Virus record (IMG/VR): IMGVR_UViG_3300049893_002901
Coordinates: 1-26,914 of that record
From: a virus
Reading direction: 5' to 3' (one strand)
DNA length: 26,914 nucleotides
The notes under the pieces: model-generated
What the model saw: the letters and a program-made list of their open reading frames with translations, nothing else
Databases searched by the model: none
What the model was told of the DNA's origin: nothing
Made by a program: the position numbers and the translations under genes
Shown: piece by piece, positions 3,397 through 25,195 of the stretch
Layout of the letters: each line of letters begins with the position of its first letter
Position numbering within the stretch: position 1 is the stretch's first letter

Positions 3397-3930
3397 ATGG
3401 GAATTAGAAAAGGAACAGTCACGCACTTCGGTCTGAATGCTGAAAATGCATATCATAGAATTAAAACCGTACGTGGAGAAAATGGCGGCGTTATTAAGTA
3501 TGAAGTAGAAACATATCTCGATCAAGATGCCAGACTGAACGGATTTCGTCCACTTACATCGGATATATTTGCTGTGCCAGGCGACTTACAGAGTAGACTG
3601 GGCATTATATCAGAACTATATAATATCTTAAAGCTAGAACCTGGCTATGAGGGAGCGGAGGATATCTTCGAGCCAACATCATTTCCGCATATAAGCGGTC
3701 AGATATCAAATGCTTATATGCTTATGGCAACCTCTATAAGCGGACTAGATACAGATACTATGAGCGTTAATGATGGTTATGTTACTGGTAAATTTGTCAT
3801 GAACGGATATGTGGTTCAGGGAACTCTAGCATCTGCTAGTATATCAAATATAGCTAGTTTTGGAGACGGCTATAGGAATGGATACATATCAGAAGCTGAA
3901 TTAGACGGATATATAGTGCAGGTACTGTAA
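3397..3930 (+). CDS. Hypothetical virion-region protein with Gly-Tyr-rich C terminus (177 aa)
   Basis: Function not recognised. ATG at 3397 follows TGGAG with 7-base spacing. Residues 1-85 look like a small folded domain of mixed helix and strand (GTVTHFGLNAENAYHRIKTV, then QSRLGIISELYNILKLEPGY). The last 60 residues hold five Gly-Tyr turns: NDGYV, MNGYV, GDGYR, RNGYI and LDGYI, three of them Asp-Gly-Tyr. The spacing suggests short beta hairpins rather than an exact repeat. There is no signal peptide or membrane helix. It sits between a fibre and two membrane proteins in the same strand and operon, so a small virion component or adaptor is plausible, but this rests on context only. The Asp-Gly-Tyr motif recurs in four larger structural proteins downstream. 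Confidence 0.75.
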   Translation: MGIRKGTVTHFGLNAENAYHRIKTVRGENGGVIKYEVETYLDQDARLNGFRPLTSDIFAVPGDLQSRLGIISELYNILKLEPGYEGAEDIFEPTSFPHISGQISNAYMLMATSISGLDTDTMSVNDGYVTGKFVMNGYVVQGTLASASISNIASFGDGYRNGYISEAELDGYIVQVL

Positions 3931-3939
3931 GGGATTATT

Positions 3940-4248
3940 ATGAGAACTATAAAATTTAAGATGTCTAGTAGCAAGTTTTTTCTAGCAGTGTCTATGATTG
4001 TAATGGCGAATTTACTCATGTGGGTACCAGTTATTGTAAATATAACTGCTGGTACAGCGCTACTATTAATAACTGGCTCTGAATACGTAAGTTTGATGAT
4101 TGGTATATACGGACTTTACTGCGGACTGAATGTTGCCCAAAAAAGAGTGCTATCTCAGGCAGGGACGTCAGATCCAGATCTGGATGATATAGTGCGGCCA
4201 ACACCTAAAAAGGCAAAGCAACACCAGGAAGATATGACTGCAGATTGA
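3940..4248 (+). CDS. Small protein with two membrane segments (102 aa), holin-like candidate
   Basis: ATG at 3940 follows AAGGGA, 9 bases after the previous stop. Two hydrophobic segments are visible: about residues 13-37 (FFLAVSMIVMANLLMWVPVIV) and 42-66 (LLLITGSEYVSLMIGIYGLYCGL). The tail is hydrophilic (residues 68-102, with PTPKKAKQHQEDMTAD), so a two-helix inner-membrane protein with both ends in the cytoplasm is likely. Size and topology match class II holins, and the next gene encodes a membrane-anchored coiled-coil protein that could be spanin-like. However, no endolysin is visible in the window and two helices are common in unrelated small membrane proteins. The holin role is a hypothesis; the membrane location is well supported. 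Confidence 0.75.
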   Translation: MRTIKFKMSSSKFFLAVSMIVMANLLMWVPVIVNITAGTALLLITGSEYVSLMIGIYGLYCGLNVAQKRVLSQAGTSDPDLDDIVRPTPKKAKQHQEDMTAD

Positions 4249-4258
4249 TGGAAGTTAT

Positions 4259-5290
4259 ATGGAAGATAATAAAAAGAAGAGCTTAGCCATCTGGAGCATG
4301 ATTATTATAATATCTATGCTCGGATTTCTAGTATTTACTACTACTCGCGAGTTAGATCGAATAAGAAATGAACTAACGGCTCGTGATGCGCAAATACAAG
4401 AAATGGACGTTAAGTTAGGCCTTGCCAGATCATCACTTCTGGAATTATCTCAACTAAATGATAAATATAAAGACGAGATAGATTCTTTTCCAGATAAATT
4501 AAAGGGAATAATAGACTCATATAATCTGAAGCTGATGAGTCGTGATAAGACAATAGCGATGCTGAAAAATACTGTCTCTGGTGGCAAGACTAATGTTATA
4601 GTACAATCAGGAGATGCAGATAAGAAAGCCACTGATATCAAAGAGCAGCTGAAAATATCATATGAATGGTCAGATGAGCTGAGTAGATTTCATCTGATCG
4701 ATCCAGATATATTCGCACAGAACGATGAACGATTTACATATAGCCAGCACGTTGCAGTTACTGGGCACGTTTTTTACGGTAAAGATGGTAGATTACAGAT
4801 ACGAAGAATGGAACTTCATGAGGTAGTACCTGACGGTACAGATGATGCCGGTAAGCCTAAGTTTAAAGATGTCGAAGGAAGTTCGATGGAAATCGTTGAT
4901 AGTAAATTTGAATATGCAGATATAGCTAAAAAGGAAAGGCGTCTAATAGATATACTGCACCCACGTTTAATTGCGTCAGTTAGCACCCAAATGAACGTAC
5001 CGACATTCAATACTATAATTAGACCAGGAATTGGAATTGAAATTATCAATCTAGGAAGATATATCGATCATGCTAATCTTGGACTAAATATACAAGCATT
5101 CCCAAATATAGAGGACATACGCGGCGGGAGTCTATTGCGTACAGGAATTGGCGTAGGAATAGCCTACACGCTATTGCCGCCCCTATTTAATACAAATATA
5201 GGTTTAGGATTAAGCGCCTCAACTCCTTCTAATAATTTGTTAAATGAATGGCGATTCAACGTAGACGCCATACTCTACGCGACAAATTGA
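4259..5290 (+). CDS. Membrane-anchored coiled-coil protein with C-terminal beta-rich domain (343 aa)
   Basis: Function not recognised. ATG at 4259, 10 bases after the preceding stop, with a GGAAG-type site. An N-terminal basic patch (DNKKKS) precedes one hydrophobic helix at residues 9-27, giving an N-in single anchor with the bulk in the periplasm or outside. Residues 28-100 are charged heptad-like sequence (RELDRIRNELTARDAQIQEM), a probable coiled coil. A middle domain (residues 125-235) contains SYEWSDELSRFHLIDPDIF and alternating strands. The last 100 residues show alternating glycine and aliphatic residues (GIGIEIINLGRYIDH, GIGVGIAYTLLPPLF, GLGLSAS), resembling beta-barrel or membrane-associated strands. 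Together with the two-helix protein just upstream it could be a lysis or envelope-spanning pair; alternatively it serves virion assembly at the membrane. Both are inference. Confidence 0.75.
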   Translation: MEDNKKKSLAIWSMIIIISMLGFLVFTTTRELDRIRNELTARDAQIQEMDVKLGLARSSLLELSQLNDKYKDEIDSFPDKLKGIIDSYNLKLMSRDKTIAMLKNTVSGGKTNVIVQSGDADKKATDIKEQLKISYEWSDELSRFHLIDPDIFAQNDERFTYSQHVAVTGHVFYGKDGRLQIRRMELHEVVPDGTDDAGKPKFKDVEGSSMEIVDSKFEYADIAKKERRLIDILHPRLIASVSTQMNVPTFNTIIRPGIGIEIINLGRYIDHANLGLNIQAFPNIEDIRGGSLLRTGIGVGIAYTLLPPLFNTNIGLGLSASTPSNNLLNEWRFNVDAILYATN

Positions 5291-5305
5291 ATTTTAGGTG
5301 CTAAT

Positions 5306-8300
5306 TTGAGTAAATATCCAAGCCAGCTAGATACAAACGCTGAGCTAACCCCTGTAGCTGATAATGTAACTGAACTTACATCAGAGCACATAAATGCCCT
5401 GCGTAATGCTATTTTTGCCATAGAGAGAACTCTAGGGGTAAATCCGCATGGTTCAGCAACAGATCTTAAAACCAGATTAGAGCAAATAATAAATCCTGAT
5501 GGCACCTTTAAGTCAGCAGCATTAGTATCTGCAGGGCTGATAGCTTTGCCGATCACCAACACTATGATAGGGGGCTCGGCAGCAATCAGCGAGTCGAAGC
5601 TAGATCTTGACGTAGGTACACAAACTCTACAGAATCAAATATCCTCAAATGATATCGACATAGCTGCCCTACAATCATTATATAACTCACTATTATACAC
5701 TTATAACAATCATGCTAACGGTATAGCACAAAGACATGATGGATATGATATTGATATTGCCGGAGGATTAAGTTCTGCACCTACAGTAGGTACCATCGGT
5801 CATGCTGTAGACTTTATCTACAATTCACTCCTATCACATAAGGATCCTAATTCCGTAGAACAACATGCAGCATCGTCCATCACATACATCCCAGATTTAT
5901 CTGGACCGATTACAGCATACAATGTACAGGATGCGATTACGCAGGTCGATTCGGCATTTCAAGAAGATAGGAGAATACATAATGCTATAGCTCACGACAA
6001 TGGAATTGTGACAGATGGATATGCTCCGTATACTGGTCGTTCAGATTCACATTTGGCAGCACTTAGAACTTCTATATTTCAGCCATCATCATCAAGAGCA
6101 GAGATTAAAATAGGCCATATCTCCGCAGCATCGATAAAAACGCTCGGACTTAATCCTCTAGCCATAAGCGCATCAGCGCAGAATTTAGATTTTACAATTA
6201 AATCAGGGACCTCAGTACGCACCTTTTCAGTTACAGGACTGCATACTGCAACATATCCAGTTACATATGATAAATACCCAATTAAAGCACTGGTAAATTA
6301 TCTTAATGCAGCTTTTGCAAATACTGCAGATCAAATCTCCCTGCAAGCATATGATGCCGGTGACGGCGAAATTATTATACAACATAATATTGACAGAGAT
6401 GATTGCACCATAACATTAACGACACCTGCAGTCAACTCAGCACTGGGCGCATTTGGCTGGACTGACTTAGTGGGGATAGTATTTTCCCCACGTAGGACCA
6501 CGCAGGCGTATATTGATGGATATCAATTAGAAGCACTAAAGAAGATACATGAGGGAGCCTATACACTAATGGCTCCATTTGCAATCATTGACTTGGGTGT
6601 AGTTAGTGGCAGTAGCGGACTGAATCTAAAGGTAGGCAGTTTAGTACATATCTATAATCACTCTAGCTCAAATGGTGCAAGAACGCACAGAATAACATCC
6701 GTACCCCCACCACCATCAACGCAAATTAGCGTAGATACTCCAATAGATGCCGGTACTTTCAACTACATTATTTATGAAGACACTGCATATATTCCATCAG
6801 GCGGCAATCCTCGCAGTATAGATATCTTTTATAATTCAAATCAGACAATAGAAGCACAGGTCAGATATGAAGTATCTCTCGCCCCAATATCAAATATTCA
6901 AATTCTTGAAGTTACTCCCCAATTATCCGGTAGCGGATTTCTCCAATTAGTTACAGGGTCGCCAAACACTTTGCAGCTAACTATAAATTCACAATCTGGA
7001 GCAGCAGCGGCATTTTATACTGGGTATATCGGCGAAGTAAAGGTATATGCTGCTGATGGCATCAATTATATAACATGCTTAATCTCATCAACGACATTAT
7101 TGCCAACGACCAGTACTATTACTATATACCCGCGACAATCATCACACACACAGATGTTGCTCGGCAGCTCATACTACAATGGCGCTAATTCAATATATGT
7201 ACCAGTAGATAAAACCAATGTAGGTTCTGTAGGTATAAATGAGGTGTCGTCAAGCTTTATAAAAGAGAGAATAGATACACCATTGTCGCTTATATGTGGC
7301 GCAGGAGTTATATCCGGATTGCAAGTAACATCGCCATCGTCAACTACGCTGGAGTTTACTGGCGGGCAGTGTGTTGTTTCCGGAAAAATTATACAAGTAG
7401 CCAAGACAACTATATCAGTATTCAATACTGTCTCTGCTACTGGTTTATGGAATGCTATAGTCAATAACCATGGCAATATTGAACTTCTAGATGATTCGCA
7501 GCCTGGACATAGTATAGCTGAGCTGGCTACATCTGCAGAAGTAGCATTGCTTGCACAATTCACTACATTAGCCAGCAACATTACCTCAGTACTTGATGCT
7601 AGGTCATTTGTTAATAATCTATCAGCAAAACATCTGCCTACACTAAACACTCAGGAAGGATTCGGAACATTCGCCACATTACAGGCAGCACAGCTTTATG
7701 CTGCAGAATCAGCCAGGGCGGTAGATTCATATATAATTGCCACAGACTCAATAGTTGTATCCTCAAGCATTACGATCGCCGCAGATACAATTCTAGAATG
7801 CCTATCAGATCTTACTGGTACAAGTATAACTGTAGATACGGGCGCGACCTTATATGTGCGCGGAAATCTAACGGCATCCAGCATCACGCTGCAGAGTTCG
7901 AGTACTCTGGTAGTTGATGGTCAATTGACAATCAGCGGCACACTAACGCTATCCTCATCTACTCAAATGCAGATCAATGATACATCTTCTGTAGGGAGTA
8001 TATCATTTACTGGCGATAACAATCTGTTTGTTGGAAAGAGGGAGGTAGAGCTCAATCTATTAGGTGTTATAACGCCAGGCATATCCATTGCTGCAGCAAA
8101 TAATATCATAAGAAATATACAAATTACAATACCGAATTCAGCCAATACTACCGTAATACAAACTTCGGCTGGTGCCAGCGAGACGTTGATAGATAACTGT
8201 ACAATAACACGGCTTGGTGCAGCTGGCTCATGGTCATCAAATCAAATTGGTATACAAGTAGCCGATGCGGTAGCTGTATCACATATAGAAATACGGAACA

Positions 8301-9991
8301 CAACAATAAGCAATTTCTATACTGCTATAGATATCGCATCCACTGCGGTGCAAGTAGGCAGAGTGGAGATATTTGAATGTAATATCTACGACTGTAACTC
8401 AGCAATCAAATCCAATAAGACTGATGCACTAACAATAGCAGGAAATACATTCAGCTCAATATATGACGAGTATATACTGCTTGATCCAAGTGGAATCAAT
8501 AGTCTTCATGCAGATGTCAGCATAATTGGCAATAGATTTATCCAAGAATACTCTGGAGGATCAGGGCTGTGTATCAAGGCAGGTTCAAAGCTAGCTACGC
8601 TACGAGTAAAAGATAATGTTTTTGATAATATAACTTCCAGTGGACACATAGTAGATTGCACTTACACGCTTATATCAGATCAGGCATCATATGCAGTAGA
8701 ATCAAATATTTTCTTAGAGTGCAATACGCCGGTATCAGGCACAGAGTTCGCGATCTCGTATCATTCGATAGATGGCGGGTTAATCTGTGCAAATAATATT
8801 TTCAGCTCACATTATGGTGCAATGTTGTCTGCTATGGGTCCGGCCACAATTAGCAATAATTTATTGATTTCACAGAGCGCGGAGATTACTCCATATGCTA
8901 CAATTGTATTGCAGAGTGACTTCCGCAGCATATTTAGCAGCAATTTACTTAGTACCTCATCAGATCAATTACTTTCGTTGTCAGAATCTGTAGTCAGGGG
9001 TAATATAATAGAGGTAGGATATATAGATATCGCGGCAGTAAATGCCAAAGATATAATAGTCGACAACTACATTCTATTGTCATCGGTGTCCGCAGCAGAC
9101 TCGATTCACATAAATTATACCACTACATCTCAAAATTACGCTACAATAAGTGATAATATAATCTTTACAAATGCAACGACATATGGTATACATGTGGAGG
9201 GTGATGGCAGCATAGTGTTCTCAGGTAATATCATTTCACCGCTATCGCCATGTTCTGCGATACTATTTGCTGCACTGGCAGGCTCAACTGGGACACAGAC
9301 GCTACTATCAAATAATGTATTTGCGGCCAACTATTCTACAGTAACAAATACATTGCTGATAGAAAAGCATTCAACATCAATTGTCGGAAATCTATTATAC
9401 TCATCGGTATCATCACCAACTACATCATCAGTAAACATAAATGGAGCAACACTTTCTAATATTGTAGTGCAAGGAAATATATTAGGAAATGCAAGCACAG
9501 CTGGACGGCAAATTATAAGCACCTCCACTGTTGATGTGCTTATTGAAAATAATAAAAATGCAGAGAGCAAAATACAGACATCGGCGCTGAGCGGTATTAT
9601 CACTACTACCACTGGGTCACTCACAACTTCGGGATGGACAGTAGATACAGGAGGTCTCTTCCTTAACTCTACATCGGCAACTACATATAATGTTACCGTG
9701 CCGCTCACTAAAATGCCAATAGGAGCACGCTTAGTAAGTTGCAGTATATATGGGGCTAGTTCAAGCGTAGGTTCTTTTACAATCCAATTATTTGTCAGAG
9801 ACCTAGGTGCCGGTACCGCAGCTACCTCAATATCTTCAACAGCATCAAATGTTGGTACAGGAGCTATTACAATAACAGCTACCCCAACATCGACGCACTA
9901 CATATCGCAGAATAAAGAATATTTATTAAAAATTACCAGTACGCAGGCCGGCAACCAGCTAGGCAATATATCTGCAATAATATATAACTGA
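5306..9991 (+). CDS. Giant virion beta-helix protein, first paralogue (1561 aa, TTG start)
   Basis: The start is TTG at 5306, preceded by TAGGTG. It is chosen because the resulting N terminus (MSKYPSQLDTNAEL) aligns without gaps to the ATG start of the next gene (MSRFPTSLDTDADL); 64 of the first 102 residues are identical by eye. Residues 1-150 form a conserved virion N-terminal domain with NPDGTFKSAALV and LIALPITN. Residues 250-780 are further beta domains (IKTLGLNPLAIS, then AYIDGYQLEAL). From about residue 785 (FATLQAAQLYAAES) to about 1430 comes a long right-handed parallel beta-helix, seen as irregular strand turns with Asn ladders (IAGNTF, IIGNRF, ISNNLL). Residues 1435-1561 are a separate C-terminal beta domain. 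Such architecture is typical of tail spikes, fibres and surface-binding or polysaccharide-degrading proteins; no catalytic residues can be named. Three Asp-Gly-Tyr motifs lie before the helix. Confidence 0.85.
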   Translation: MSKYPSQLDTNAELTPVADNVTELTSEHINALRNAIFAIERTLGVNPHGSATDLKTRLEQIINPDGTFKSAALVSAGLIALPITNTMIGGSAAISESKLDLDVGTQTLQNQISSNDIDIAALQSLYNSLLYTYNNHANGIAQRHDGYDIDIAGGLSSAPTVGTIGHAVDFIYNSLLSHKDPNSVEQHAASSITYIPDLSGPITAYNVQDAITQVDSAFQEDRRIHNAIAHDNGIVTDGYAPYTGRSDSHLAALRTSIFQPSSSRAEIKIGHISAASIKTLGLNPLAISASAQNLDFTIKSGTSVRTFSVTGLHTATYPVTYDKYPIKALVNYLNAAFANTADQISLQAYDAGDGEIIIQHNIDRDDCTITLTTPAVNSALGAFGWTDLVGIVFSPRRTTQAYIDGYQLEALKKIHEGAYTLMAPFAIIDLGVVSGSSGLNLKVGSLVHIYNHSSSNGARTHRITSVPPPPSTQISVDTPIDAGTFNYIIYEDTAYIPSGGNPRSIDIFYNSNQTIEAQVRYEVSLAPISNIQILEVTPQLSGSGFLQLVTGSPNTLQLTINSQSGAAAAFYTGYIGEVKVYAADGINYITCLISSTTLLPTTSTITIYPRQSSHTQMLLGSSYYNGANSIYVPVDKTNVGSVGINEVSSSFIKERIDTPLSLICGAGVISGLQVTSPSSTTLEFTGGQCVVSGKIIQVAKTTISVFNTVSATGLWNAIVNNHGNIELLDDSQPGHSIAELATSAEVALLAQFTTLASNITSVLDARSFVNNLSAKHLPTLNTQEGFGTFATLQAAQLYAAESARAVDSYIIATDSIVVSSSITIAADTILECLSDLTGTSITVDTGATLYVRGNLTASSITLQSSSTLVVDGQLTISGTLTLSSSTQMQINDTSSVGSISFTGDNNLFVGKREVELNLLGVITPGISIAAANNIIRNIQITIPNSANTTVIQTSAGASETLIDNCTITRLGAAGSWSSNQIGIQVADAVAVSHIEIRNTTISNFYTAIDIASTAVQVGRVEIFECNIYDCNSAIKSNKTDALTIAGNTFSSIYDEYILLDPSGINSLHADVSIIGNRFIQEYSGGSGLCIKAGSKLATLRVKDNVFDNITSSGHIVDCTYTLISDQASYAVESNIFLECNTPVSGTEFAISYHSIDGGLICANNIFSSHYGAMLSAMGPATISNNLLISQSAEITPYATIVLQSDFRSIFSSNLLSTSSDQLLSLSESVVRGNIIEVGYIDIAAVNAKDIIVDNYILLSSVSAADSIHINYTTTSQNYATISDNIIFTNATTYGIHVEGDGSIVFSGNIISPLSPCSAILFAALAGSTGTQTLLSNNVFAANYSTVTNTLLIEKHSTSIVGNLLYSSVSSPTTSSVNINGATLSNIVVQGNILGNASTAGRQIISTSTVDVLIENNKNAESKIQTSALSGIITTTTGSLTTSGWTVDTGGLFLNSTSATTYNVTVPLTKMPIGARLVSCSIYGASSSVGSFTIQLFVRDLGAGTAATSISSTASNVGTGAITITATPTSTHYISQNKEYLLKITSTQAGNQLGNISAIIYN

Positions 9992-9998
9992 GAGATTT

Positions 9999-12900
9999 AT
10001 GTCAAGATTCCCAACATCGCTAGATACTGACGCTGATTTGCCAATGGTAACGAACAATATTACTGAAGTTGGCGCTGAAGTAATTAATGATATAAGAGCA
10101 GCAATATTTGCAATTGAGGCTGCATTAGGTGCCGGTATTAATGGATCGGCGATTTCGTTACAAGAGCGCATCAATACAGTATTGAATCCAGACGGAACAT
10201 TTAAATCAGCGGCCCTAGTAGCGGCAGGCCTTATCGCACTGCCGATCACCAATGCCATGGTAGGTGCGTCAGCAGCCATACTAGAGTCAAAACTTGATCT
10301 AGATCACTCTACTCAATCACTCTATAATCAGATTATTTCAAACGACGTAGATATCGCCACACTACAAACTAACATTAGCGCAGTATTGGCAAATTTCCTA
10401 TCTCATGTATCTGGTGCTGCATTTAAGCATGATGGTTACCAAATTCTTCTAGAAACAGCCCACCCAACATCTCCGCCGCCAAATATAGCACCACTTGCAT
10501 CCGTAAGTGTCGGAGATGCAGTATTTAAAATCAAGGATTACCTATTCGATCACATCGACCAGCTTAAAGTTGGTGCGCACACAGCAGCGAACATAGCACT
10601 TGATACATCAGAATTAACTCGCATAACTGCAAGCAATTTGCAGCAGGCAGTGCAGCAGCTGGAAGTTATTGGAGAGACGCTTTTTATAGATCATAGAGAC
10701 GATCTTCATGCCAGCGGATTTTCTAATTTTGCAAACTCGCGAGACGGATATGGTATAAATAGGCAGTTGCTACCGACACAGTACGGCGCTACGGTGACAG
10801 CATATATAATGTCGGACAGACAAACTGTATTTTTCGATGGGTATGTGCTAGCCGCACTGGGTATCAATGCAGGTGACGTAGTAGTGGTAACCTCCCCTGT
10901 AGAAGCGCGATTGACTATAGAAGGAGTTGGTCCTAGATTAGCGCTAGGCAGCAAATCAGCACTTACGAATAACCAATTATCGCTAGCAGAGCATGCCCCA
11001 GTAGACGGATATATAGCAGCAGCCATCTATACGCCAAGCTCAACATCGCTGTTGAAAGGCAATATGGCCCCCACAATTCATCAGTCGGATATTAGAGTAG
11101 ATAGCATTCAGGTATCTCGCCCAAATGCAGCAAGGATTACGACTCTTGGGCTAAATCCAAAATTCATCACAGCTGCACATAGTATCGGTATAGAAGTTGG
11201 GGTAGGTAATGGCCAAACACGCACAATAAGCGTTAATAATTTACATCTAACACGATCGGGCCTGCCATCCCCTACGGTAACTATAGATACAATAGTTGAG
11301 CGACTCAATCACGTATTTCACAATCGTTCTGATGGTTATGCATATCCAGTATCAGCATATAGAGTTGGCGATGAAATTATGCTATCTCATAACTGGGTGG
11401 GCTCAGATGAGTACTTCTTAAGTATCACTTCGTTAGGGTCAACAACACAATCATTATATATACTGGGACTTGATGATTATGGCGCAAGCGTAGTAGATGC
11501 TAGAATTTACCCAACACAAAATGCCAGCCTTTATATTAATGGGGCGCGACTAACTGATGTAGGGACGATCCTGCAAACTACTGCCAATATTTCAGGACAG
11601 ATCTTCACTTTTCCAGGAGGAGAGAATCCACTAGAGTTGGGCGTTAAAATCGGCCACCTACTACATTTAAAAACACATGCGAATGCTTCTGAAGTAGGGA
11701 CTTACTTTATTACAGGAGTGAATACCTCTAGTATTACAATACATAAAAATGCAGGTATAACTGCGGAAAACGGAGTATACATAGAGGTATTTCACGATGT
11801 GATTCCACTTGATGAATTACAAGGTTATACTCAGCACTCTCTAATAGAAGTATACTGTGATTATGAAGGCAAATTAGGATATGATATAAGATGGGATAAT
11901 GATCTCGTTACAAATGTAACGAATAGTATTAGAGTAGTAGACGTATCGGATAATTTCGCTGCAGGAGGAGTAACGATCGATATTACTGCTGCTGGCACCG
12001 GTCGTCGATTGACATTTACTGGTGGGATACCAAGAGAGATTCCGTATGATTTCAGTGGAGAGATTAAACTACGAGATCTGTCAAATGCCTCATATGCCAC
12101 ATTGCGGATACAAAGTCCAATAATAGGAACGGGCACGATCACCGCAACGTCGCATAGCCATACTTTAGAAGAAGAGGTTCTCGAATTATGCGCAGTATGG
12201 TTTGATGGCGGACTTACACTTAATCACATTAGAGATCGGCGCTTATTTGGCACTACCGGACTGGACGAAATACGAGAAGATGTGGTTAGAGAATACTCTG
12301 AACTGCCGATACGAGAATTGCGCGCAGATGGTATCATCACCGGCCTAGACATAATAACTGTAAATTATACCGATGCAGAGAGTATAGCAAACTTAGGTAG
12401 CAATATCTATGGCATACTATTTCGCGGAGGCACTGTTTATGTTGATGGCGTCAGAACAGACGTTAGCTCACAGGTTGTATATTTTCCATACCAGTCAGCA
12501 TCATATATAGCATATATTAATCATTTAGGCAATATACATTTTATACCGCACGGAACCACTTCTGTGGACGGATATTCGTCTGTAGCAGAGGTACTCGATG
12601 GATATATTGGTCCATCTGCACCAATTGCGCTAGTTACTCATAGCGGCTCTGGAGTCACACCTCTCAGTGCAGTAGATTTACGGTACTTCATCAACAATCT
12701 AGATAACAAGTTAGACTTAGTACTGGATATATCAAACAGGCGTATAGGAAATATAGCATCTTTTGAGGCTGCAGAATACTATATAAATAATAGTGGAGCA
12801 GATGCGATTACAGCATTAAGAATAGCATCAAATACCCCGCTAACATCTATAAGTACAAGCGTAGGATCAAAGAGTTATACCTTAAGTATAGATGGTTCAG

Positions 12901-15900
12901 TTGGCAGTCTAACACTCAATAGCAGCATCAGACTGACTTCTAACTCTACCAAATATCCAGCTATACCGCAGGTATCACAACTAACAATAGCAGACTCATG
13001 CATATCAGCATCCATAAGCAACATACATATTTCAGGCAGCATTACTATAGATAGTGTATCTGATACTAATACAGTAGAGTTCAATAACTGTATTTTCGAC
13101 GGAGCAATTACAAGCTCAGCGCTATCATATGCTAAAATAATATTCAAAGGTTGTACATTTTCAGATATGTCCTCTGTCTTGATTGAAGGGGATGATATTA
13201 GAATAGAAGATTGCACTGTAACAACAAATTCATTTACACTGGAGCTATCACGGACCTGCTCAGTAACAAATTGCAACTTCAGCGCAGACTCTGTATTTGC
13301 AACGTTTACTCGCTCAGCCACACTAGGGGTATCTCCGATAGCCACTCATTTAGTGATGTCTGGCTGTAGATTTGATGGGCAAAATGGAGGATATACGCTA
13401 GGAATAGCGGTAACATCAACGATATCAGATTGCGCCTTTTCTAATATAACCAAAAGTACGGATTCTCTGGTTGGTATAATTGACGTTACATCAAATACTG
13501 CAAATCCAGACGTGATTGTACAAAGCTGCACATTTGAGAGCTTGACAGTTTCTAGCGGACACAAAGTAACACTTTGTGAGCAACAGACACTGCTAGAGGT
13601 ATCTAATTGCATATTTACAAGTTGCACACTTCCAACAGCCGTCAATCTAGTAGCTACTAAGTTTAATAACAATCTAATAAATATCCACTCAAGCTCGACA
13701 CTACATGTGGCGCTTACTGGCTCACTTGCTATGTGCAACTACAACGAACAGCTTGGGTCAGTCGAGTATCTGGGGGCCGGCAGTGCCGAGCATATACAAG
13801 CTATAGTCGGCAACGTATTCTCTAGTACTGATTCGCTGGGCTACAATATCAGCATAAACAGCACAGGGACAGTGGTCTCACCAATAAGTATTACTGATAA
13901 TAAGATAGTATTAAAGGTATTACTCAGTACAGCGGCTAAATATGTAATTATATCAAATAATGTATTTACAGGCTCAAGCGCACAAATTGACTTCGGTACG
14001 CTCAGCACCTCATCGGCATATATAGTTGTAGATAAAAATACATTTAATACCGTAACAACACCATTCGCATTTTCAAATCCAGTAGGAACTCTAATAATTA
14101 GAGATAATCTATTTGAGTCAATTACTAGCGGTACGGTGTCAATGACGTTCGCATCAAACTGCACATATGCTAGTAATATAAGCCTTGATGTCAATACGAT
14201 AGTTGAGATAAACAATCCATCATCCATTAGCAATATTAGCATTATAGATAATATACTAGGACACAACTTTTACATATCGTCCCCGTTAACATCCTCACGC
14301 ATATCAGGAAATATTTTTAACTCTGGAGGAGCGGAGCTCAGACTAAATACAAGCATGACGCTGTCTAGCACGATAATATCAGATAACAGAATAGGCACGC
14401 TAAGATTTACATCTGGAAATACACTAACTGATGTACTGCTTGACAATAACTACATCAATACAATAACAAATTCTGCTGTATGGACGCGATCAATAATATC
14501 AAACAATAGACTTTCAAGTACGATGTCTGCATTTGACTGCGGTGCGACAGGGGAAAATATATTTACTGGAAATAACAGTACTTCTGCACTGCAATTAACA
14601 TCATCGACCACTATACTAAAGTGCTCAGTTACAAATAACACAGTAGGTGATATAGACATTTTAGCTGCGGCTGATAGTCTATCTATATGTGCCAATACAG
14701 CAACTGACATTTCTTTGGTAAATGCAGATTCAGCATTTATATCAAACAATATATTAGATGGAGCAGTGGCCATTATAGGTCAAATATTCAATAGCTCAAT
14801 ATCGCAGAATAGAGTAGATTCACTAGATATCCGGCCATCTACTGGTAGTAATGGACTGGACATTACAGATAATATAATTTCTACCACTTTAGATATATTT
14901 GAACAGTCAGGCTCTACAGCAAATGAGATATCGAATTTAAAGATATTTGGCAATACTGTTTATGGTAATATAGAGTTCTTTGGTCCAACAAATGCAAGCG
15001 CGCACAGGACGGTTACCAACTTAAATATATCAAATAATAACATGCAGGCCTTAACAATTCTAGGTAGTGCTAGAGATCCGGCAGCGATATTCACAATAGA
15101 TATAATAAATATCTCACATAATCAATGCGAGGATATCACATTATTGTCGCTACTTGGAGATGCTACCAATATATCAAATATCACTATTATTGGTAATAAA
15201 TGTGAGGATATTGCTACACATGCAGGAGCTGCATCTGTAGGCACAATGTCAAATTATAGCATTCAGCATAATTACTGCAATAGGATAGCGATAAATACAG
15301 GAGGAGGTCTCTTCACTGCAGAAGATATAATAATTTCTCACAATATACTGAGCGGCTTTATCTTTATAGATGCATATGATACATTAATCAGTGCAACAAT
15401 TAAAGCAAATGATACCCCTAGCACAATATCGCTAGGAGCAGCTGATACTATATCTTTTACTAATATCTCTGATAACGCTAGTGGCGCAGGAATCGGCATT
15501 AGTGTAGATACTGGAATTCTATCTAATATGATTATATCACAAAATCGCATTATAGGCAACCTAACTGTAACAAGCAATAATACAGGGCCATCAGGCACAG
15601 TAGCCTATAGTGCAATGCATATAGCTGATAATATAGCAACTACACTCGAATTTACACTGGGACCAAGCAATCTTGTAATGGAAAACAGTATCATATCTGC
15701 GAATACATTATCTGCAAATATAAATCTACCGGGGAGAATGACAAACACATCAGTAATGAACAATATTGCATCAGCAATATCCTTGGCAGACTCCACTGCA
15801 GCTAGTTCAATAACAAGATTAAACTTCTGCTTCAATACAATTTTAACTACCTGTACACTGCCAAGCAGCGAATCATGTTTTGTATCTGGAAGCGGACAAA

Positions 15901-16097
15901 GTAAATTTATAGGAAACTTCGCAGCAACATGGTCAGCACCAGGCACATTTAACACATCAGGAGACACATATCTATTCCCACTAGGGAATACTTCTACAAA
16001 TGCCAGTTCGAACGTTACATTTGCCGGCACTACAGCAGTAGATATTACAACGATGAACAACGTAGATACCATAGCTGGTGGCGGCATAACAAACTGA
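9999..16097 (+). CDS. Giant virion beta-helix protein, second paralogue (2032 aa)
   Basis: Largest protein in the window. ATG at 9999 follows GAGAG, 7 bases after the previous stop. The N-terminal 150 residues are paralogous to the preceding protein. A domain with TTLGLNPKFITAA and LYINGARLTDVG matches its TLGLNPLAIS and AYIDGYQLEAL region, so the two arose by gene duplication and later diverged. About 130 extra residues (roughly 230-360, HASGFSNFANSRDGY onwards) are inserted relative to the first copy. From about residue 917 (IASFEAAEYYINN) to about 1990 runs an unusually long parallel beta-helix with Asn-rich turns (IISNNVF, ISDNRI, ISHNQCEDI, IIGNKCEDI). The end (ITTMNNVDTIAGGGITN) is short and lacks the larger C-terminal domain of the first paralogue. 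Seven Asp-Gly-Tyr motifs occur, all before the helix. Likely a fibre or spike-like surface protein; substrate unknown. Confidence 0.85.
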   Translation: MSRFPTSLDTDADLPMVTNNITEVGAEVINDIRAAIFAIEAALGAGINGSAISLQERINTVLNPDGTFKSAALVAAGLIALPITNAMVGASAAILESKLDLDHSTQSLYNQIISNDVDIATLQTNISAVLANFLSHVSGAAFKHDGYQILLETAHPTSPPPNIAPLASVSVGDAVFKIKDYLFDHIDQLKVGAHTAANIALDTSELTRITASNLQQAVQQLEVIGETLFIDHRDDLHASGFSNFANSRDGYGINRQLLPTQYGATVTAYIMSDRQTVFFDGYVLAALGINAGDVVVVTSPVEARLTIEGVGPRLALGSKSALTNNQLSLAEHAPVDGYIAAAIYTPSSTSLLKGNMAPTIHQSDIRVDSIQVSRPNAARITTLGLNPKFITAAHSIGIEVGVGNGQTRTISVNNLHLTRSGLPSPTVTIDTIVERLNHVFHNRSDGYAYPVSAYRVGDEIMLSHNWVGSDEYFLSITSLGSTTQSLYILGLDDYGASVVDARIYPTQNASLYINGARLTDVGTILQTTANISGQIFTFPGGENPLELGVKIGHLLHLKTHANASEVGTYFITGVNTSSITIHKNAGITAENGVYIEVFHDVIPLDELQGYTQHSLIEVYCDYEGKLGYDIRWDNDLVTNVTNSIRVVDVSDNFAAGGVTIDITAAGTGRRLTFTGGIPREIPYDFSGEIKLRDLSNASYATLRIQSPIIGTGTITATSHSHTLEEEVLELCAVWFDGGLTLNHIRDRRLFGTTGLDEIREDVVREYSELPIRELRADGIITGLDIITVNYTDAESIANLGSNIYGILFRGGTVYVDGVRTDVSSQVVYFPYQSASYIAYINHLGNIHFIPHGTTSVDGYSSVAEVLDGYIGPSAPIALVTHSGSGVTPLSAVDLRYFINNLDNKLDLVLDISNRRIGNIASFEAAEYYINNSGADAITALRIASNTPLTSISTSVGSKSYTLSIDGSVGSLTLNSSIRLTSNSTKYPAIPQVSQLTIADSCISASISNIHISGSITIDSVSDTNTVEFNNCIFDGAITSSALSYAKIIFKGCTFSDMSSVLIEGDDIRIEDCTVTTNSFTLELSRTCSVTNCNFSADSVFATFTRSATLGVSPIATHLVMSGCRFDGQNGGYTLGIAVTSTISDCAFSNITKSTDSLVGIIDVTSNTANPDVIVQSCTFESLTVSSGHKVTLCEQQTLLEVSNCIFTSCTLPTAVNLVATKFNNNLINIHSSSTLHVALTGSLAMCNYNEQLGSVEYLGAGSAEHIQAIVGNVFSSTDSLGYNISINSTGTVVSPISITDNKIVLKVLLSTAAKYVIISNNVFTGSSAQIDFGTLSTSSAYIVVDKNTFNTVTTPFAFSNPVGTLIIRDNLFESITSGTVSMTFASNCTYASNISLDVNTIVEINNPSSISNISIIDNILGHNFYISSPLTSSRISGNIFNSGGAELRLNTSMTLSSTIISDNRIGTLRFTSGNTLTDVLLDNNYINTITNSAVWTRSIISNNRLSSTMSAFDCGATGENIFTGNNSTSALQLTSSTTILKCSVTNNTVGDIDILAAADSLSICANTATDISLVNADSAFISNNILDGAVAIIGQIFNSSISQNRVDSLDIRPSTGSNGLDITDNIISTTLDIFEQSGSTANEISNLKIFGNTVYGNIEFFGPTNASAHRTVTNLNISNNNMQALTILGSARDPAAIFTIDIINISHNQCEDITLLSLLGDATNISNITIIGNKCEDIATHAGAASVGTMSNYSIQHNYCNRIAINTGGGLFTAEDIIISHNILSGFIFIDAYDTLISATIKANDTPSTISLGAADTISFTNISDNASGAGIGISVDTGILSNMIISQNRIIGNLTVTSNNTGPSGTVAYSAMHIADNIATTLEFTLGPSNLVMENSIISANTLSANINLPGRMTNTSVMNNIASAISLADSTAASSITRLNFCFNTILTTCTLPSSESCFVSGSGQSKFIGNFAATWSAPGTFNTSGDTYLFPLGNTSTNASSNVTFAGTTAVDITTMNNVDTIAGGGITN

Positions 16098-16105
16098 GGT
16101 AATAT

Positions 16106-16600
16106 ATGAAAGAGCCGATTCAAATGATTGAGGAAATGTACAGCATAATACTTAAGATGCAAGGTCAACTTGCAGTTATGGATAATAATATAAAGCTATT
16201 ACAAGCAAAGGTAAATGCAGAAGTATTTGCAGGACTTTCGGGCATGCTAACAACAAATCAACTTACGCACACAAGTCCGCCCAATATACCACTTCCACAA
16301 GCGCCACCTCCACAAGTTCAACCAAAAATAGCACTTCCACAGGAAGAGAGCATTACTTATAAAGGCACCATGGTGCAAGGGAAAATCTTATCAGATGAAG
16401 GTAAGCCATTGCATGGAATATCCATTAAAATAATGAATTCTGATAAAAAGGTAATAAAAGAAACTTCTACAAATCGTGCCGGGTTATGGATGGCACAGTT
16501 AAAACCAGGTAAATATATAGCCAAAGCTATTATGGATAATAAACCAGCGCAGTTTAAGTTATTTGATGTTATAGAGGGTCAGGCGGCACAGGACGTATAA
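16106..16600 (+). CDS. Coiled-coil / Pro-rich linker / beta-sandwich protein (164 aa)
   Basis: ATG at 16106 follows TGAGGTAAT, 8 bases after the giant gene. Three parts are visible. Residues 5-40 (MIEEMYSIILKMQGQLAVMD) are a likely oligomerising coiled coil. Residues 55-80 are a Pro/Gln-rich linker (PPNIPLPQAPPPQVQPKIAL). Residues 87-160 are a small Ig-like sandwich with GTMVQGKILSDEGKPLHGIS and a TNRAGLWMAQLKPGKYIAKA turn, the pattern of carboxypeptidase-regulatory-like or Cna-B-like domains. No catalytic site is expected. Such proteins in tail operons usually decorate virions or trim fibre attachment, here inferred from the position between the fibre-like genes and the neck and sheath genes. 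Family assignment of the C-terminal domain is from pattern only. Confidence 0.75.
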   Translation: MKEPIQMIEEMYSIILKMQGQLAVMDNNIKLLQAKVNAEVFAGLSGMLTTNQLTHTSPPNIPLPQAPPPQVQPKIALPQEESITYKGTMVQGKILSDEGKPLHGISIKIMNSDKKVIKETSTNRAGLWMAQLKPGKYIAKAIMDNKPAQFKLFDVIEGQAAQDV

Positions 16601-16602
16601 TA

Positions 16603-17373
16603 ATGAGCATAGGCAGTAGCGCAATAGTCTTTTCTGACATATATCAATTAGATAACATCGTGCGTAATACGGCTATGATGGCCGGCAGGAATTTACTTAT
16701 AGATATTCTTAGAGAGATGTTTAAAAGAGATAGGGAATACAGATATGTGACAGATAAATTTGGATTTCCTAAAACTCCTAACAATCTTGGATTATCAGCA
16801 GACGATGGGCGTACAAATGAGAGAACCACTAGGTTGTTCATAGGCGGCGCATATAGACAGGACATCTCATTCTTACCTGCAATAACTGTACGTCCAGCAT
16901 CGACGTCATATGCCCCAATATCATTCAATCAAAATGAACAAACGATAGCATATTCATCACAAAAAGTTATAGATGGATATGGCAATCAATCTATAATAAA
17001 TGCCCCATCAGCTGTTATTTTCGCAGGCGCATGGGAGCAGTCATTTGAAGTAAAGGTAGTTGGCCGCTCTCAAGAGGATGTGCTATCTATCGGAGATCTC
17101 GTGTTGGTAGGATTGCAGAACACTTATAGAGGAGTTCTGCGACAAAGTGGACTATTTATAAAAAATGTCAGTAGTTCTGGACAATCAGAGGAACAGATTG
17201 GCGAGGCAGATCCGGCATTCTCAACTAGTATTACAGTTAACACGTATTCTGAATGGAGAAGAGAAATTCCGATAACAACACTAGTAGATAGAATACATCT
17301 TTGTTTTGAGGTGGACGCCTCTACTGAAGATATACCTGCGGTACATCTTGGTGGAGAGATAAATCTAAGTTAA
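16603..17373 (+). CDS. Neck / tail-completion-like virion protein (256 aa)
   Basis: ATG at 16603, only 2 bases after the upstream stop, so translation is probably coupled. Features include an N-terminal helix (NLLIDILREMFKRDREYRYV), a FPKTPNNLGLSADDG loop, then beta-rich sequence with RLFIGGAYRQDISFLPAI, APISFNQNEQTIAYS, VIFAGAWEQSFEVKV and EWRREIPITTLVD. This layout, just upstream of the sheath gene, fits the tail-completion, neck or sheath-terminator class in contractile-tailed phages. That is resemblance plus synteny; I cannot name the family with certainty. It has one Asp-Gly-Tyr (VIDGYGNQS) in the central sheet. The 83-base gap after it is the longest gene-free stretch in the window. Confidence 0.65.
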   Translation: MSIGSSAIVFSDIYQLDNIVRNTAMMAGRNLLIDILREMFKRDREYRYVTDKFGFPKTPNNLGLSADDGRTNERTTRLFIGGAYRQDISFLPAITVRPASTSYAPISFNQNEQTIAYSSQKVIDGYGNQSIINAPSAVIFAGAWEQSFEVKVVGRSQEDVLSIGDLVLVGLQNTYRGVLRQSGLFIKNVSSSGQSEEQIGEADPAFSTSITVNTYSEWRREIPITTLVDRIHLCFEVDASTEDIPAVHLGGEINLS

Positions 17374-17456
17374 TGTATTCAGATGCCAGTATACTCTACT
17401 AATTAATATGCTTCTGGATATAGATAATCATCAGGCAGTTATTAAGGAGATTATTC
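17374..17456 (+). promoter_or_regulatory. Leader before sheath gene with strong Shine-Dalgarno
   Basis: This 83-base gap precedes the sheath ATG and carries AAGGAGA at 17444-17450, the strongest ribosome site in the window, as expected for an abundant virion protein. TATACT (17390-17395) and GATAAT (17423-17428) are -10-like, but neither has a recognisable -35 box or an extended -10 TG. A sheath promoter is possible but not shown. Confidence 0.35.
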
Positions 17457-20015
17457 ATGGCAAATATTATCCCAGGAGTTCCACAGCGCACTCAGCCAAG
17501 GGTTTTTGTACGCACTAAGACACTGTCGCGTTCTATTGCTGGCAACACCGGCTCAAGACTTTTGTGTATTATTGGTGAGGGTGAGGCGGAGGAGACATTA
17601 GTCGAATCAGCTCTAGGCTCTGGCGCCGATGGTGTAAATCCAGATTTCTCCGGCTCAAGCACTCCTGACGGTCGTCATTTTCAGATCTCCAAGACCAGCC
17701 TTATCGAAAATAGGACTACTATACTTAAAAACGGCTCACCATTACGGGTACTAGAAGCGCAGATTGATACAGACCCATTTGACTCGCGCTATGACGCTCG
17801 TTTAGAAATCTCCACTGGCCGCATACAATTACAACAGGCATATCTGATAAATCAAGGTGGCACTACAGCTGTTCCGCAATATTGGTCATCGCCATTGACC
17901 AATGCCGGAAATGGAAGCCCTAACCTAACGGCAGATTCACTGGTAGACACCAGCTCGCCAGCAGAAGCATGGACCCTTCGCTGCATATCAGTTATACGCG
18001 ATGGATATGGAGCTATAATCTCCGGCAAGGCCACATTTGCACTATCTGGTTCAGTTAGCGGCGTCATAAAGGATGTAAATGGCAGTCCAATTCGCTGGAA
18101 ATCGGATGGCTATGTTCACAGCAACGAACTTCTAAGCTTCTCCATCTCAGAAGGAGCTGTCCCATTCGATGTGGGTGATCGGTTTACAATTGAAGTTGGA
18201 TCAGGGGTACTGGCTAAGAATGATAATCTGGCTGTGCGATATATTGCAGAGCAGGACCTTAATGACCCAGAGATCTTTGACAGCGGCCAAGCCTTATTTG
18301 CTAAGCACGGTGAGCCTTCAGTAGCAAACTCACTATCACTAGCTTCACAAATGGCCTTTGAGAATGGGGCTCCGCGAATATTAGCGTTGCAAGCTAAGCC
18401 GCCAGTACCGCGCCGCACTAGCGCACAACTACTTGCTGCAGACAATCCACTAACTATTGCAGTTGAGGGAGCTACTGGAAATACCGATAGCTCAGATTGT
18501 ATCTTTCCACTACCATTAGGGGCTAAGCCAGATGGAGATACTGAAGTCCATATCTTCGTGGTTTCTTCAGATGGAACAGAGGAACAGCTAGTTCTCACCA
18601 AGGAGTCATTCTACGACCCTGCATATAATACAATTGCCAATGCATATGCTAACTTTGTACAGGGCGCATTTTCTCAGTCATATACTATGATTGAAGCTTC
18701 AGAAGTAGAAGATAGCGGCTCAGATGGGTATGCGCTTGCGACTACTACGACCGACATCACTTTCCAGTCAGACACAGCATTTTTCTCAGTAGATTTCCTC
18801 GATGCTGGTGAGGATGATACGCTCAAGCAAATCGAGATTATCTCACCAGCCGCTCTCGCCGCAACTTACAATATTTTAAGTGTAGGTGATGGCTATGGCG
18901 ACAATACTACTGTGACAGCTCAGCGTACGTCAGGTACACACACTGCCGGCCTAGGATTCTCAGATGTACAATGGCGTATAATTGATACTGCAGACACTGG
19001 GACATACCTATGTCTAACAGATGATATTGTACAGGATTACCTCACAGCAGGTAAGGGAGTGCGCATTACCTATGTAGATCAAAAAGATGCGGACTTTTTC
19101 GATTCAAACTGGGGCACAGCTCTTGAAAATCTTGAAACAGTAGAGCTGCAGATGTTGGTACCAGTACCATCGGCAACGATATCCAATGTTATACAAGCAG
19201 CTAGAGTACATTGTGAGGTAATGTCTAATGTAGTAAATGCGCGAGAGCGTCACCTTATTACCGGCGCGATCAATGGACTGACTCCAGATAATCTTATCGG
19301 AAGAGAAGATGCTGCAGTAGAAGATATAGGATTGCTAGAAGGCATTCAGGGCGATGATGTTGAGGAAGTGCTTGGTGGCAACATCGAAGATCTAGCCGAT
19401 TACTCGGTCTCCGCAGCATTCGGCAATACATATCGAGTTACCTACATGTGCCCAGATCAGATTGTCAGAAGCATTAACGGAAGCAATACAGTGCTTTCTG
19501 GCCTTTACCTCGCAGCCTGTTTAGGAGGGCATCTGGCCGCGCAAAGTGACTTCGCGCAACCAGTAACCTTTAAGACTCTTGCAGGATTTAATATTCTACG
19601 CGATCGACAATATCGTCAAGTTGTTCTTGATGAGCTGGCAGATGCCGGGGTCTGTGTGGTTCAACCAGTTGCTGGCGGAGGAAAGATTCTACATGGCCTT
19701 ACCACCACTCAATCTGGTGCACCAGAAGAAGAAGAGATTTCAATTGTCCACATTCGTGATGCTACAGCCAGAGCCCTACGTAGCGCAGTAGACCCGTTTA
19801 TAGGCACCGTAGCTGGGCCTACGACCATACCGTCAATCACCTCAGCGGTCAAAAATACGCTCGAGGAACTTGTTACACAGGGACTTTTGACAGGTTTCTT
19901 CAATTTACAAGTCAAGCGCAATCCGATTGAACCGCGACAATACGATGTTAGTGTAACCATTGCACCGGCTACCCCAATTAACTGGGTATTTGTCGACGTA
20001 ACAGTTACAATATAA
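17457..20015 (+). CDS. Contractile tail sheath protein (852 aa)
   Basis: Forms the contractile sheath around the tail tube. ATG at 17457 with a strong AAGGAGA site. The N terminus has IIPGVPQRTQPRVFVRT, the entry typical of large-phage sheaths. The middle (about residues 160-560) is a set of inserted beta domains exposed on the sheath surface. The conserved C-terminal sheath domain spans about residues 620-852: YMCPDQIVRSINGS, then FKTLAGFNILRDRQYRQVV, then a final NLQVKRNPIEPRQYDVSV strand. That terminal strand normally joins neighbouring subunits. Length is at the large end for sheaths, as in big myoviruses. Ile codons are more often ATT or ATC than in the fibre genes, consistent with high expression. 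Four Asp-Gly-Tyr motifs occur, all in the inserted middle domains. The tube gene follows 32 bases downstream. Confidence 0.93.
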   Translation: MANIIPGVPQRTQPRVFVRTKTLSRSIAGNTGSRLLCIIGEGEAEETLVESALGSGADGVNPDFSGSSTPDGRHFQISKTSLIENRTTILKNGSPLRVLEAQIDTDPFDSRYDARLEISTGRIQLQQAYLINQGGTTAVPQYWSSPLTNAGNGSPNLTADSLVDTSSPAEAWTLRCISVIRDGYGAIISGKATFALSGSVSGVIKDVNGSPIRWKSDGYVHSNELLSFSISEGAVPFDVGDRFTIEVGSGVLAKNDNLAVRYIAEQDLNDPEIFDSGQALFAKHGEPSVANSLSLASQMAFENGAPRILALQAKPPVPRRTSAQLLAADNPLTIAVEGATGNTDSSDCIFPLPLGAKPDGDTEVHIFVVSSDGTEEQLVLTKESFYDPAYNTIANAYANFVQGAFSQSYTMIEASEVEDSGSDGYALATTTTDITFQSDTAFFSVDFLDAGEDDTLKQIEIISPAALAATYNILSVGDGYGDNTTVTAQRTSGTHTAGLGFSDVQWRIIDTADTGTYLCLTDDIVQDYLTAGKGVRITYVDQKDADFFDSNWGTALENLETVELQMLVPVPSATISNVIQAARVHCEVMSNVVNARERHLITGAINGLTPDNLIGREDAAVEDIGLLEGIQGDDVEEVLGGNIEDLADYSVSAAFGNTYRVTYMCPDQIVRSINGSNTVLSGLYLAACLGGHLAAQSDFAQPVTFKTLAGFNILRDRQYRQVVLDELADAGVCVVQPVAGGGKILHGLTTTQSGAPEEEEISIVHIRDATARALRSAVDPFIGTVAGPTTIPSITSAVKNTLEELVTQGLLTGFFNLQVKRNPIEPRQYDVSVTIAPATPINWVFVDVTVTI

Positions 20016-20047: not shown

Positions 20048-20725
20048 ATGGCATATCCAAATACAAATTCAAGACTTGAGACGTTCATCTCAACATCGCT
20101 ATCAACTCAGATTCTAGTTGAAGTAGATGGTAAGAAAGTCGGCGCACTGCAGAATATGACGATTAATCAAAATCGTTCTGTGATGCGCGTTAGTGAAATT
20201 GGGTTTGATGGTGTTCTAGAGGTGGTGCCTAACTCTGCGCCGGAAATAGAGTTGAGTGTTTCAAGGATTACCTTCGACGGACTAAGTCTGCCGCTTGCAT
20301 TTGGCCGACCATTCCATAATATAAAATCACAACGCATTCCATTTACAATCAAAGTATTTGATATGATGTATGCGCAGGCAGGCGAGGCACCAGACTTCTC
20401 TCCAGTAGAAAACTCCCCCGGCATGATTATACATGAATATAAAAACTGTTGGTTTACGCGACTTAGCGGAAGCTATCAAATACGAGAGTATATAATAACA
20501 CAAGAAGCCACTATTGTTCCAGAGGATGTAGTTACTTATTTTGCTAATGGCACCACATCTCCAGCACTTCCAGCTAATGATTTCTTTAGCGGTTATCTTG
20601 GTGGGCCAGGAGCAGATAATTTAGCTTATAATATTGAAACCACAACAGACGTCGGTAGAAGGGGTACGCTCGATGCTGCATCATTAGGCCTGTTTCTTAA
20701 TGACTCACCGATATTTGGCGGATAA
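20048..20725 (+). CDS. Tail tube protein (225 aa)
   Basis: ATG at 20048 follows GAGGAGAGA. Position directly after the sheath and before chaperone and tape measure is the standard place of the tube gene. The sequence begins with a strand-rich region (STQILVEVDGKKVGALQN) followed by QNRSVMRVSEIGFDGVLEVV, the type of start seen in contractile-tail tube subunits, and continues with paired strands (IELSVSRITFDGLSL, HEYKNCWFTRLSGSYQ). There is no membrane segment or signal. The C-terminal 60 residues (PALPANDFFSGYLGGPG) are loop-like, perhaps a surface extension. Expected to stack as hexameric rings inside the sheath and on the tape measure. The assignment is strong from context and size, moderate from sequence alone. 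Confidence 0.85.
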   Translation: MAYPNTNSRLETFISTSLSTQILVEVDGKKVGALQNMTINQNRSVMRVSEIGFDGVLEVVPNSAPEIELSVSRITFDGLSLPLAFGRPFHNIKSQRIPFTIKVFDMMYAQAGEAPDFSPVENSPGMIIHEYKNCWFTRLSGSYQIREYIITQEATIVPEDVVTYFANGTTSPALPANDFFSGYLGGPGADNLAYNIETTTDVGRRGTLDAASLGLFLNDSPIFGG

Positions 20726-20749
20726 TAATTAATATTCCTCACACCTGAT

Positions 20750-20788
20750 ATACCTAGGATGTATATGCATCTTAGGTATTTTTGTTTT
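20750..20788 (+). terminator. Rho-independent terminator after tube gene
   Basis: A 12-base stem, 20750-20761 (ATACCTAGGATG) against 20768-20779 (CATCTTAGGTAT), pairs fully with one G-U pair around a 6-base loop. It is followed directly by TTTTTGTTTT. It lies 24 bases after the tube stop and probably lowers expression of the downstream genes relative to sheath and tube. Confidence 0.9.
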
Positions 20789-20798
20789 AGAGGTTAGA

Positions 20799-21014
20799 TT
20801 GAATAAATCACTATCAACAAAATTAGATAATAAAGATGAAACACTTAAGTCCAGGCTGCAGATAATAGTAGATGACATACTAAAAGATTTAAACTCGCAG
20901 GAGATTATTCCTACGATAGATTATAATATAGAGATCAGACAAGAACCTGGATGTCCAGCAACTTATGAAGTTAGAATATCATTTATACCACTCATTCCGT
21001 TGTATTTACCCTAG
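20799..21014 (+). CDS. Small hypothetical protein (71 aa, TTG start)
   Basis: TTG at 20799 follows AGAGGT with short spacing and begins MNKSLSTKLDNKDE. Residues 8-35 form an amphipathic helix (LKSRLQIIVDDILKDLN), then two likely strands (IDYNIEIRQEPG, TYEVRISFIPLIPLYLP). No known family is recognised. It sits between the terminator and the chaperone gene, so it depends on readthrough or its own unseen promoter. The TTG start, short length and lack of an identified family keep confidence moderate, but frame, ribosome site and composition look like coding sequence. Confidence 0.6.
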   Translation: MNKSLSTKLDNKDETLKSRLQIIVDDILKDLNSQEIIPTIDYNIEIRQEPGCPATYEVRISFIPLIPLYLP

Positions 21015-21034
21015 ATGTATATATCTAAGATATA
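21008..21034 (+). repeat. Degenerate copy of the terminator hairpin sequence
   Basis: ACCCTAGATGTATATATCT and the following AAGATA resemble the upstream terminator (ACCTAGGATGTATATGCATC, then TTAGGTAT). Only a 5-bp stem (21012-21016 with 21023-21027) remains and there is no T-run, so I do not call a terminator. The two related elements flank the 71-aa gene, whose stop codon lies in this copy. Confidence 0.45.
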
Positions 21035-21055
21035 ACAATTCTACGGAGTATAGAA

Positions 21056-24187: not shown

Positions 24188-24203
24188 TATTATCGGAGCA
24201 CCA

Positions 24204-25181: not shown

Positions 25182-25195
25182 GATAGAGGTAGTTA

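Follow-up and report, generated by a model that had tools for sequence, protein, structure and literature searches.

The window analysed in this study is the whole 26,914-nucleotide stretch of the IMG/VR virus record IMGVR_UViG_3300049893_002901. Its tail genes lie on the plus strand, and the tripeptide Asp-Gly-Tyr (DGY) recurs in five of the proteins, always in frame, at the start positions given below.

506..3355, plus strand: 949-aa tail fibre; no DGY
3397..3930, plus strand: 177-aa virion-associated protein (PHROG 18037, unknown function); 3 DGY (3772, 3865, 3904)
5306..9991, plus strand: 1561-aa tail/baseplate-associated protein, N-terminal domains followed by a beta-helix; 3 DGY (5738, 6014, 6515)
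9999..16097, plus strand: 2032-aa paralogue of the 1561-aa protein; 7 DGY (10431, 10743, 10836, 11004, 11331, 12567, 12597)
16603..17373, plus strand: 256-aa tail protein; 1 DGY (16972)
17457..20015, plus strand: tail sheath (PHROG tail sheath); 4 DGY (18000, 18105, 18723, 18888)
20048..26914, plus strand: tail tube, chaperone-like ORF, tape measure and hub-like ORFs, internal components; no DGY

A previous sequence-only reading of this DNA counted 18 in-frame DGY copies in five proteins, and all of its coordinates were correct, with 3, 3, 7, 1 and 4 copies per ORF. Its estimate that residue frequencies would predict about one copy agrees with the composition expectation of 1.2; additionally, 3000 residue shuffles of the window proteins gave a mean of 1.2 and a maximum of 7, and a first-order Markov model using the DG and GY counts gave 2.6. 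When all tripeptides of the window were ranked, DGY was the most over-represented (P ~1e-15); the runner-up, at 4e-6, trails it by nine orders of magnitude. The residue following DG was Tyr 18 times and Thr 8 times, and never Phe or Trp. The distribution described earlier also held, as the fibre, tube, tape measure and hub ORFs have zero copies each and the beta-helices are avoided: the copies in the 1561-aa protein are confined to its N-terminal part, and the C-terminal beta-helix of the 2032-aa protein has none. In the 177-aa protein all three copies fall in the C-terminal third, and its C-terminus (FGDGYRNGYISEAELDGYI, window 3865-3930) is EF-hand-loop-like. The sheath copies are at residues 182, 217, 423 and 478.

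A scan based on the sheath returned 51 viral loci, and where the sheath is at least about 45% identical to that of the window (88% in the nearest relative) DGY tends to lead the tripeptide ranking of the longer loci. Among 11 relatives counted over whole contigs, many of them fragments, DGY ranks first in 10 and second in G007, with P from 1e-8 to 1e-82. Copies seen against those expected were 95/5.2 in G003 (1e-82), 69/5.6 in G001, 63/4.9 in G002, 86/9.3 in G004, 105/14.7 in G005, 83/15.7 in G006 and 100/16.1 in G008. DGF, DGW, NGY and EGY were near expectation in these contigs. Neither a DGY frequency as low as that of Asp-Gly plus other aromatics nor conservation for ordinary fold reasons, the two outcomes named beforehand as counting against the proposal, was found. 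DAY is likewise enriched in most members of one lineage (48/10.3 in G008) and in G003 (18/4.5), whereas G001, G002, G010 and the window have no more of it than chance predicts. Judged from these counts, DGY enrichment is a clade-wide trait of huge phages.

Within the relatives, the carriers of DGY are the tail sheath, the 256-aa tail protein and proteins of the baseplate or fibre network; their tube, tape measure and hub have none, and the non-tail region of G001 has zero copies. Homologues of the 1561-aa protein in L001, L002 and L007 likewise carry DGY, those of the 2032-aa protein have 3-7 copies apiece, and the single site of the 256-aa protein is kept in 17 of 17 aligned homologues. A likely major capsid protein, named by eye (G005, 203147-204169), has no DGY; it is 87-89% identical to its counterparts in G003, G004 and G008, although the sheaths of those three share just 48-66% identity with that of G005. 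A separate tripeptide, AIG, is strongly enriched proteome-wide (58/19.2 in G003, 35/11.0 in G002), perhaps through trimeric-adhesin-like fibre repeats. The control phages SPO1, a Gordonia phage and a Streptomyces phage showed no DGY enrichment. The T4 tail region has a mild excess (8/2.4), and a scan with the T4 sheath, which returned only near relatives of T4, found 24 copies where 16.5 were expected. Bacterial sheath loci make a weak baseline because each supplies only ~3.3 kb.

In the relatives a GT4 glycosyltransferase gene lies directly downstream of the tail module, next to the baseplate genes; in G001, the contig with the 88% identical sheath, it spans 66382-67545. Its product matches Pfam PF00534/PF13692 (GT-B group 1), has an EX7E motif with E265 and E273 invariant in alignment A1, and its profile matches the sequences of GT4-type PDB entries including 3oy2. 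After it come variable GT2, GT47 and GT8-like enzymes, RmlA/RmlB-like, FdtA, DegT, Gmd and Fcl-like sugar genes, methyl- and acetyltransferases and, in some phages, sulfotransferases (families without a Pfam match were named by eye). GT4 is the only conserved gene of this cassette, being present in nearly all contigs that reach that point with enough sequence. It is also present in a sister clade poor in DGY, whose few copies are mostly clustered in the pair of genes just before GT4, in runs as long as (DGY)6. The window, a 27-kb fragment, ends before any GT4, so we infer the machinery of this phage from its relatives.

The association was also examined from the enzyme side. A GT4 alignment search made without reference to DGY gave 80 viral loci (L207-L286), in which DGY is the top tripeptide when pooled (744/87.5), ranks first in 51 and has P < 0.01 in 70. 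When the deduplicated genes were divided by position, those upstream of GT4 had 653 DGY against 48.9 expected and the cassette genes downstream had 15 against 27.6, a deficit that possibly reflects avoidance of self-modification. Bacterial loci picked by the same profile had 40 against 46.9. Upstream enrichment was seen in 40 of 42 testable groups when GT4 was clustered at 70% identity and in 17 of 19 at 55%; groups L261 and L284 did not show it. Conversely, loci chosen by the protein beside GT4 contained GT4 in 68 of the 69 cases with enough sequence, and this adjoining protein has 324 DGY against 15.6 expected. One DGY-rich locus (L388/G011) has no GT4 within 4 kb downstream. In the gene-content comparison the conservation of FAD oxidoreductase, epimerase and HNH genes did not track DGY. 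A search of bacterial genomes for a host brought up general GT4 enzymes and nothing else. Streptomyces phage Blueeyedbeauty (NC_048720, 6177-8152) has two adjacent GT4-like genes, distant relatives of this GT4, and no DGY enrichment.

The sites themselves are constrained within three residues and little beyond them. Sheath DGY sites turn over between homologues, often by change of the residue following a DG turn, and the flanks of 693 sites are almost unconstrained. Phe accounts for 2-5% of the replacements of a DGY Tyr, as opposed to 26-49% of those of the remaining Tyr in these proteins; the homologue pairs behind these figures are not independent, and the contrast is present in each identity band. 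It follows that aromaticity is not what is kept, and the Tyr hydroxyl appears to matter at these sites. The Tyr of DAY in one lineage is also rarely replaced by Phe, as are those of DSY and DNY on small numbers. AlphaFold models of the N-terminal region of the 2032-aa protein (mean pLDDT 62) and of the sheath (pLDDT 48) were too weak for an exposure or fold search. In the former, the sites at residues 280 and 445 lie in loops and that at 336 on the border of a loop and a strand, and sheath site 478 is in a hairpin loop of the low-confidence model. The better-modelled sites, in models that are weak overall, fall in loops or at loop edges, save sheath 423, which is in a strand.

Three meanings had been offered for the repetition: a favoured turn, a site for a modification or ligand, and in-frame insertions. 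The second is the one that the data favour, given the strict Asp, Gly and Tyr hydroxyl, the free flanks, the site turnover and the adjacency of GT4 and a glycan cassette, whereas a mere turn or general insertions fare poorly. On balance, the sequence comparisons lead us to favour D-[G, less often A]-Y as a minimal sequon for phage-encoded Tyr modification on exposed virion proteins, most likely O-glycosylation. A more tentative extension, which we would put at slightly under even chances, is that the tripeptide is read by the dedicated phage GT4 and that the tails of the whole clade are coated with lineage-specific sulfated, methylated or acylated glycans. The sheath, 256-aa, baseplate and fibre-network proteins would display DGY on loops and turns, and a cytoplasmic GT4 would add the first sugar to the Tyr hydroxyl by reading Asp at -2 and the small residue at -1. 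The variable cassette enzymes (GT2, GT47, nucleotide-sugar synthesis, methyl-, acetyl- and sulfotransferases) would then extend and cap the glycan in each phage, and the resulting coat may shield or tune the tail surface. A priming glycosyltransferase with a sequon would be expected to give rise to the three-residue strictness, the need for the Tyr hydroxyl, the turnover, the restriction to exposed proteins and the adjacency of a conserved GT4 and variable tailoring genes. Virion proteins remain cytoplasmic, which fits a soluble glycosyltransferase rather than a membrane oligosaccharyltransferase. Counting against the proposal are the sister clade that has GT4 and little DGY, the GT4 groups L261 and L284 and the L388/G011 locus. 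A further caveat is that GT4 and DGY are co-inherited in one phage lineage, so that finding them together is no independent proof that they are related as enzyme and substrate; GT4 could instead act on a glycan intermediate, DNA or a host polymer.

The same hydroxyl and Asp requirements would be compatible with Tyr sulfation, or another non-sugar modification, carried out directly by phage sulfotransferases with Asp at -2 as an acidic determinant. Several relatives do have sulfotransferase genes (PF13469/PF00685): one in G003 sits between two fibre genes rich in DGY, and G006, G008 and G013 have others in their cassette region. However, no match was found in the DGY-rich G005 (340 kb), G001, G002 and G004, although some of these contigs are incomplete, whereas GT4 is near-universal. 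A sulfotransferase as universal writer (TPST/RaxST type) is therefore rejected, having no match in these motif-rich contigs, and those within sugar cassettes are more simply explained by glycan capping, which leaves direct sulfation an unlikely reading. An unlikely reading too is that DGY is a non-covalent docking motif through which a lectin-like or adaptor protein of the phage assembles or decorates the tail surface. The strict three-residue specificity and the presence in exposed components only would suit it, and tandem runs such as (DGY)6 would increase avidity. However, the gene-content comparison found no candidate reader conserved like GT4, and docking is also at odds with sites that lack flanking conservation.

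That DGY is merely a favoured beta-turn or calcium-loop sequence of surface beta domains seems quite improbable, even though aligned sites are mostly at DG turns and the T4 tail region has its mild excess. Two of the proposed substrate proteins give a weak, below cut-off match to dockerin, but the DxDxDG flank pattern of EF-hands and dockerins is absent from the 693 sites, which have just a weak excess of D at -3. A turn alone would also not account for NGY, EGY and DGF being near chance, for the avoidance of Phe as a replacement or for the lack of a comparable excess in unrelated contractile-tail phages, and is disfavoured as the whole explanation.

Finally, the repetition was held to lie in the protein and not in a DNA motif, which is upheld by the coding-frame copies and by codons in line with genome usage. 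The pattern GAYGGNTAY occurs 19 times on the plus strand of the whole window and 0 times on the minus strand, the extra match (15008) being out of frame. Asp and Gly codons at window DGY match window usage; both Tyr codons had been reported, and TAC does occur, but in one copy only (17:1 TAT:TAC vs 74:26 overall, P 0.049). In relatives of 31 to 56% GC the DGY codons track the usage of each genome, which indicates that selection acts on the protein, and a DNA-level repeat as the cause is ruled out by codon use. Homologue alignment, proposed earlier as a way to separate substitution from insertion, showed that many sites arose by substitution at existing DG turns, while local 9-bp tandem runs do occur in relatives. 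Small in-frame insertions spreading between genes are consequently not general, and a general 3-residue insertion is ruled out by the alignments and by gap lengths, among which 3 is only mildly enriched. In one 3295-aa ORF of G013 (IMGVR_UViG_3300010883_028422) there are tandem DGY runs, with GACGGTTAT repeated unchanged six times at 71333-71386 and GACGGATAT five times at 72749-72793; these are a recent 9-bp slippage expansion of the motif. A near-identical segment with KALFVMSTHDGYDGYDGYVDKSGQFF carries DGYDGYDGY in the low-GC viral contigs L109, L121, L125, L128 and L135, which were not retrieved by the sheath or GT4 searches and have at most one or two further DGY. A selfish or slippage-prone 9-bp element that places DGY in frame would fit the identical-codon runs of G013 and the over-representation of gaps at DGY, but the dispersed copies draw on every codon at the frequencies typical of each genome, follow the reading frame of the coding strand, and are no more frequent than chance predicts in the cassette and in other genes outside the virion set. 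Such an element is very improbable and refuted as a general cause, explaining local runs only.

No acceptor is known for many phage glycosyltransferases, those of the jumbo phage core among them. If the proposed sequon is correct, this GT4 family would gain a target in the form of a three-residue motif that can be read from sequence, and modified sites would become predictable in hundreds of virion proteins. It would also suggest a shielding or receptor-tuning layer on the tail surface, and tyrosine glycoengineering could gain a short tag together with its cytosolic enzyme.

Tyr O-glycosylation and the glycosylation of virions by viral enzymes are already known, each on its own; neither a DGY motif in phages nor a D-[G/A]-Y sequon was found in the literature searched (preprints and most subscription papers were outside its scope). 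Chlorovirus capsid glycans are N-linked to Asn. As here, chloroviruses have their own glycosyltransferase and sugar genes, and their GT4-type B736L (PDB 3oy2) matches the GT4 profile, though they are eukaryotic algal viruses with a different fold and host (PMC7019647). In bacterial S-layers Glc or Gal is linked to Tyr, and dTDP-sugar genes of the aminotransferase and ketoisomerase type resemble the cassettes described here (PMC2943079). However, transfer in S-layers is thought to be co-secretional, via an oligosaccharyltransferase and at few Tyr, as opposed to the cytosolic GT4 and many sites proposed here, and the S-layer text searched does not report a DGY sequon (PMC2943079). Moraphages and other metagenomic jumbo phages offer a further comparison: they are large and have several core glycosyltransferases of unknown target, to which the relevant passages of PMC12619734 tie no sequence motif. 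In mycobacteriophages, phage-encoded glycosyltransferases are reported to modify capsid and tail proteins, and the glycans are located at the C-terminal ends of the capsid and tail-tube subunits (Freeman et al. 2023, cited in PMC12619734). Unlike that case, DGY here is absent from the tube and the likely major capsid protein, and the D-[G/A]-Y sites are internal and dispersed over sheath and baseplate proteins.
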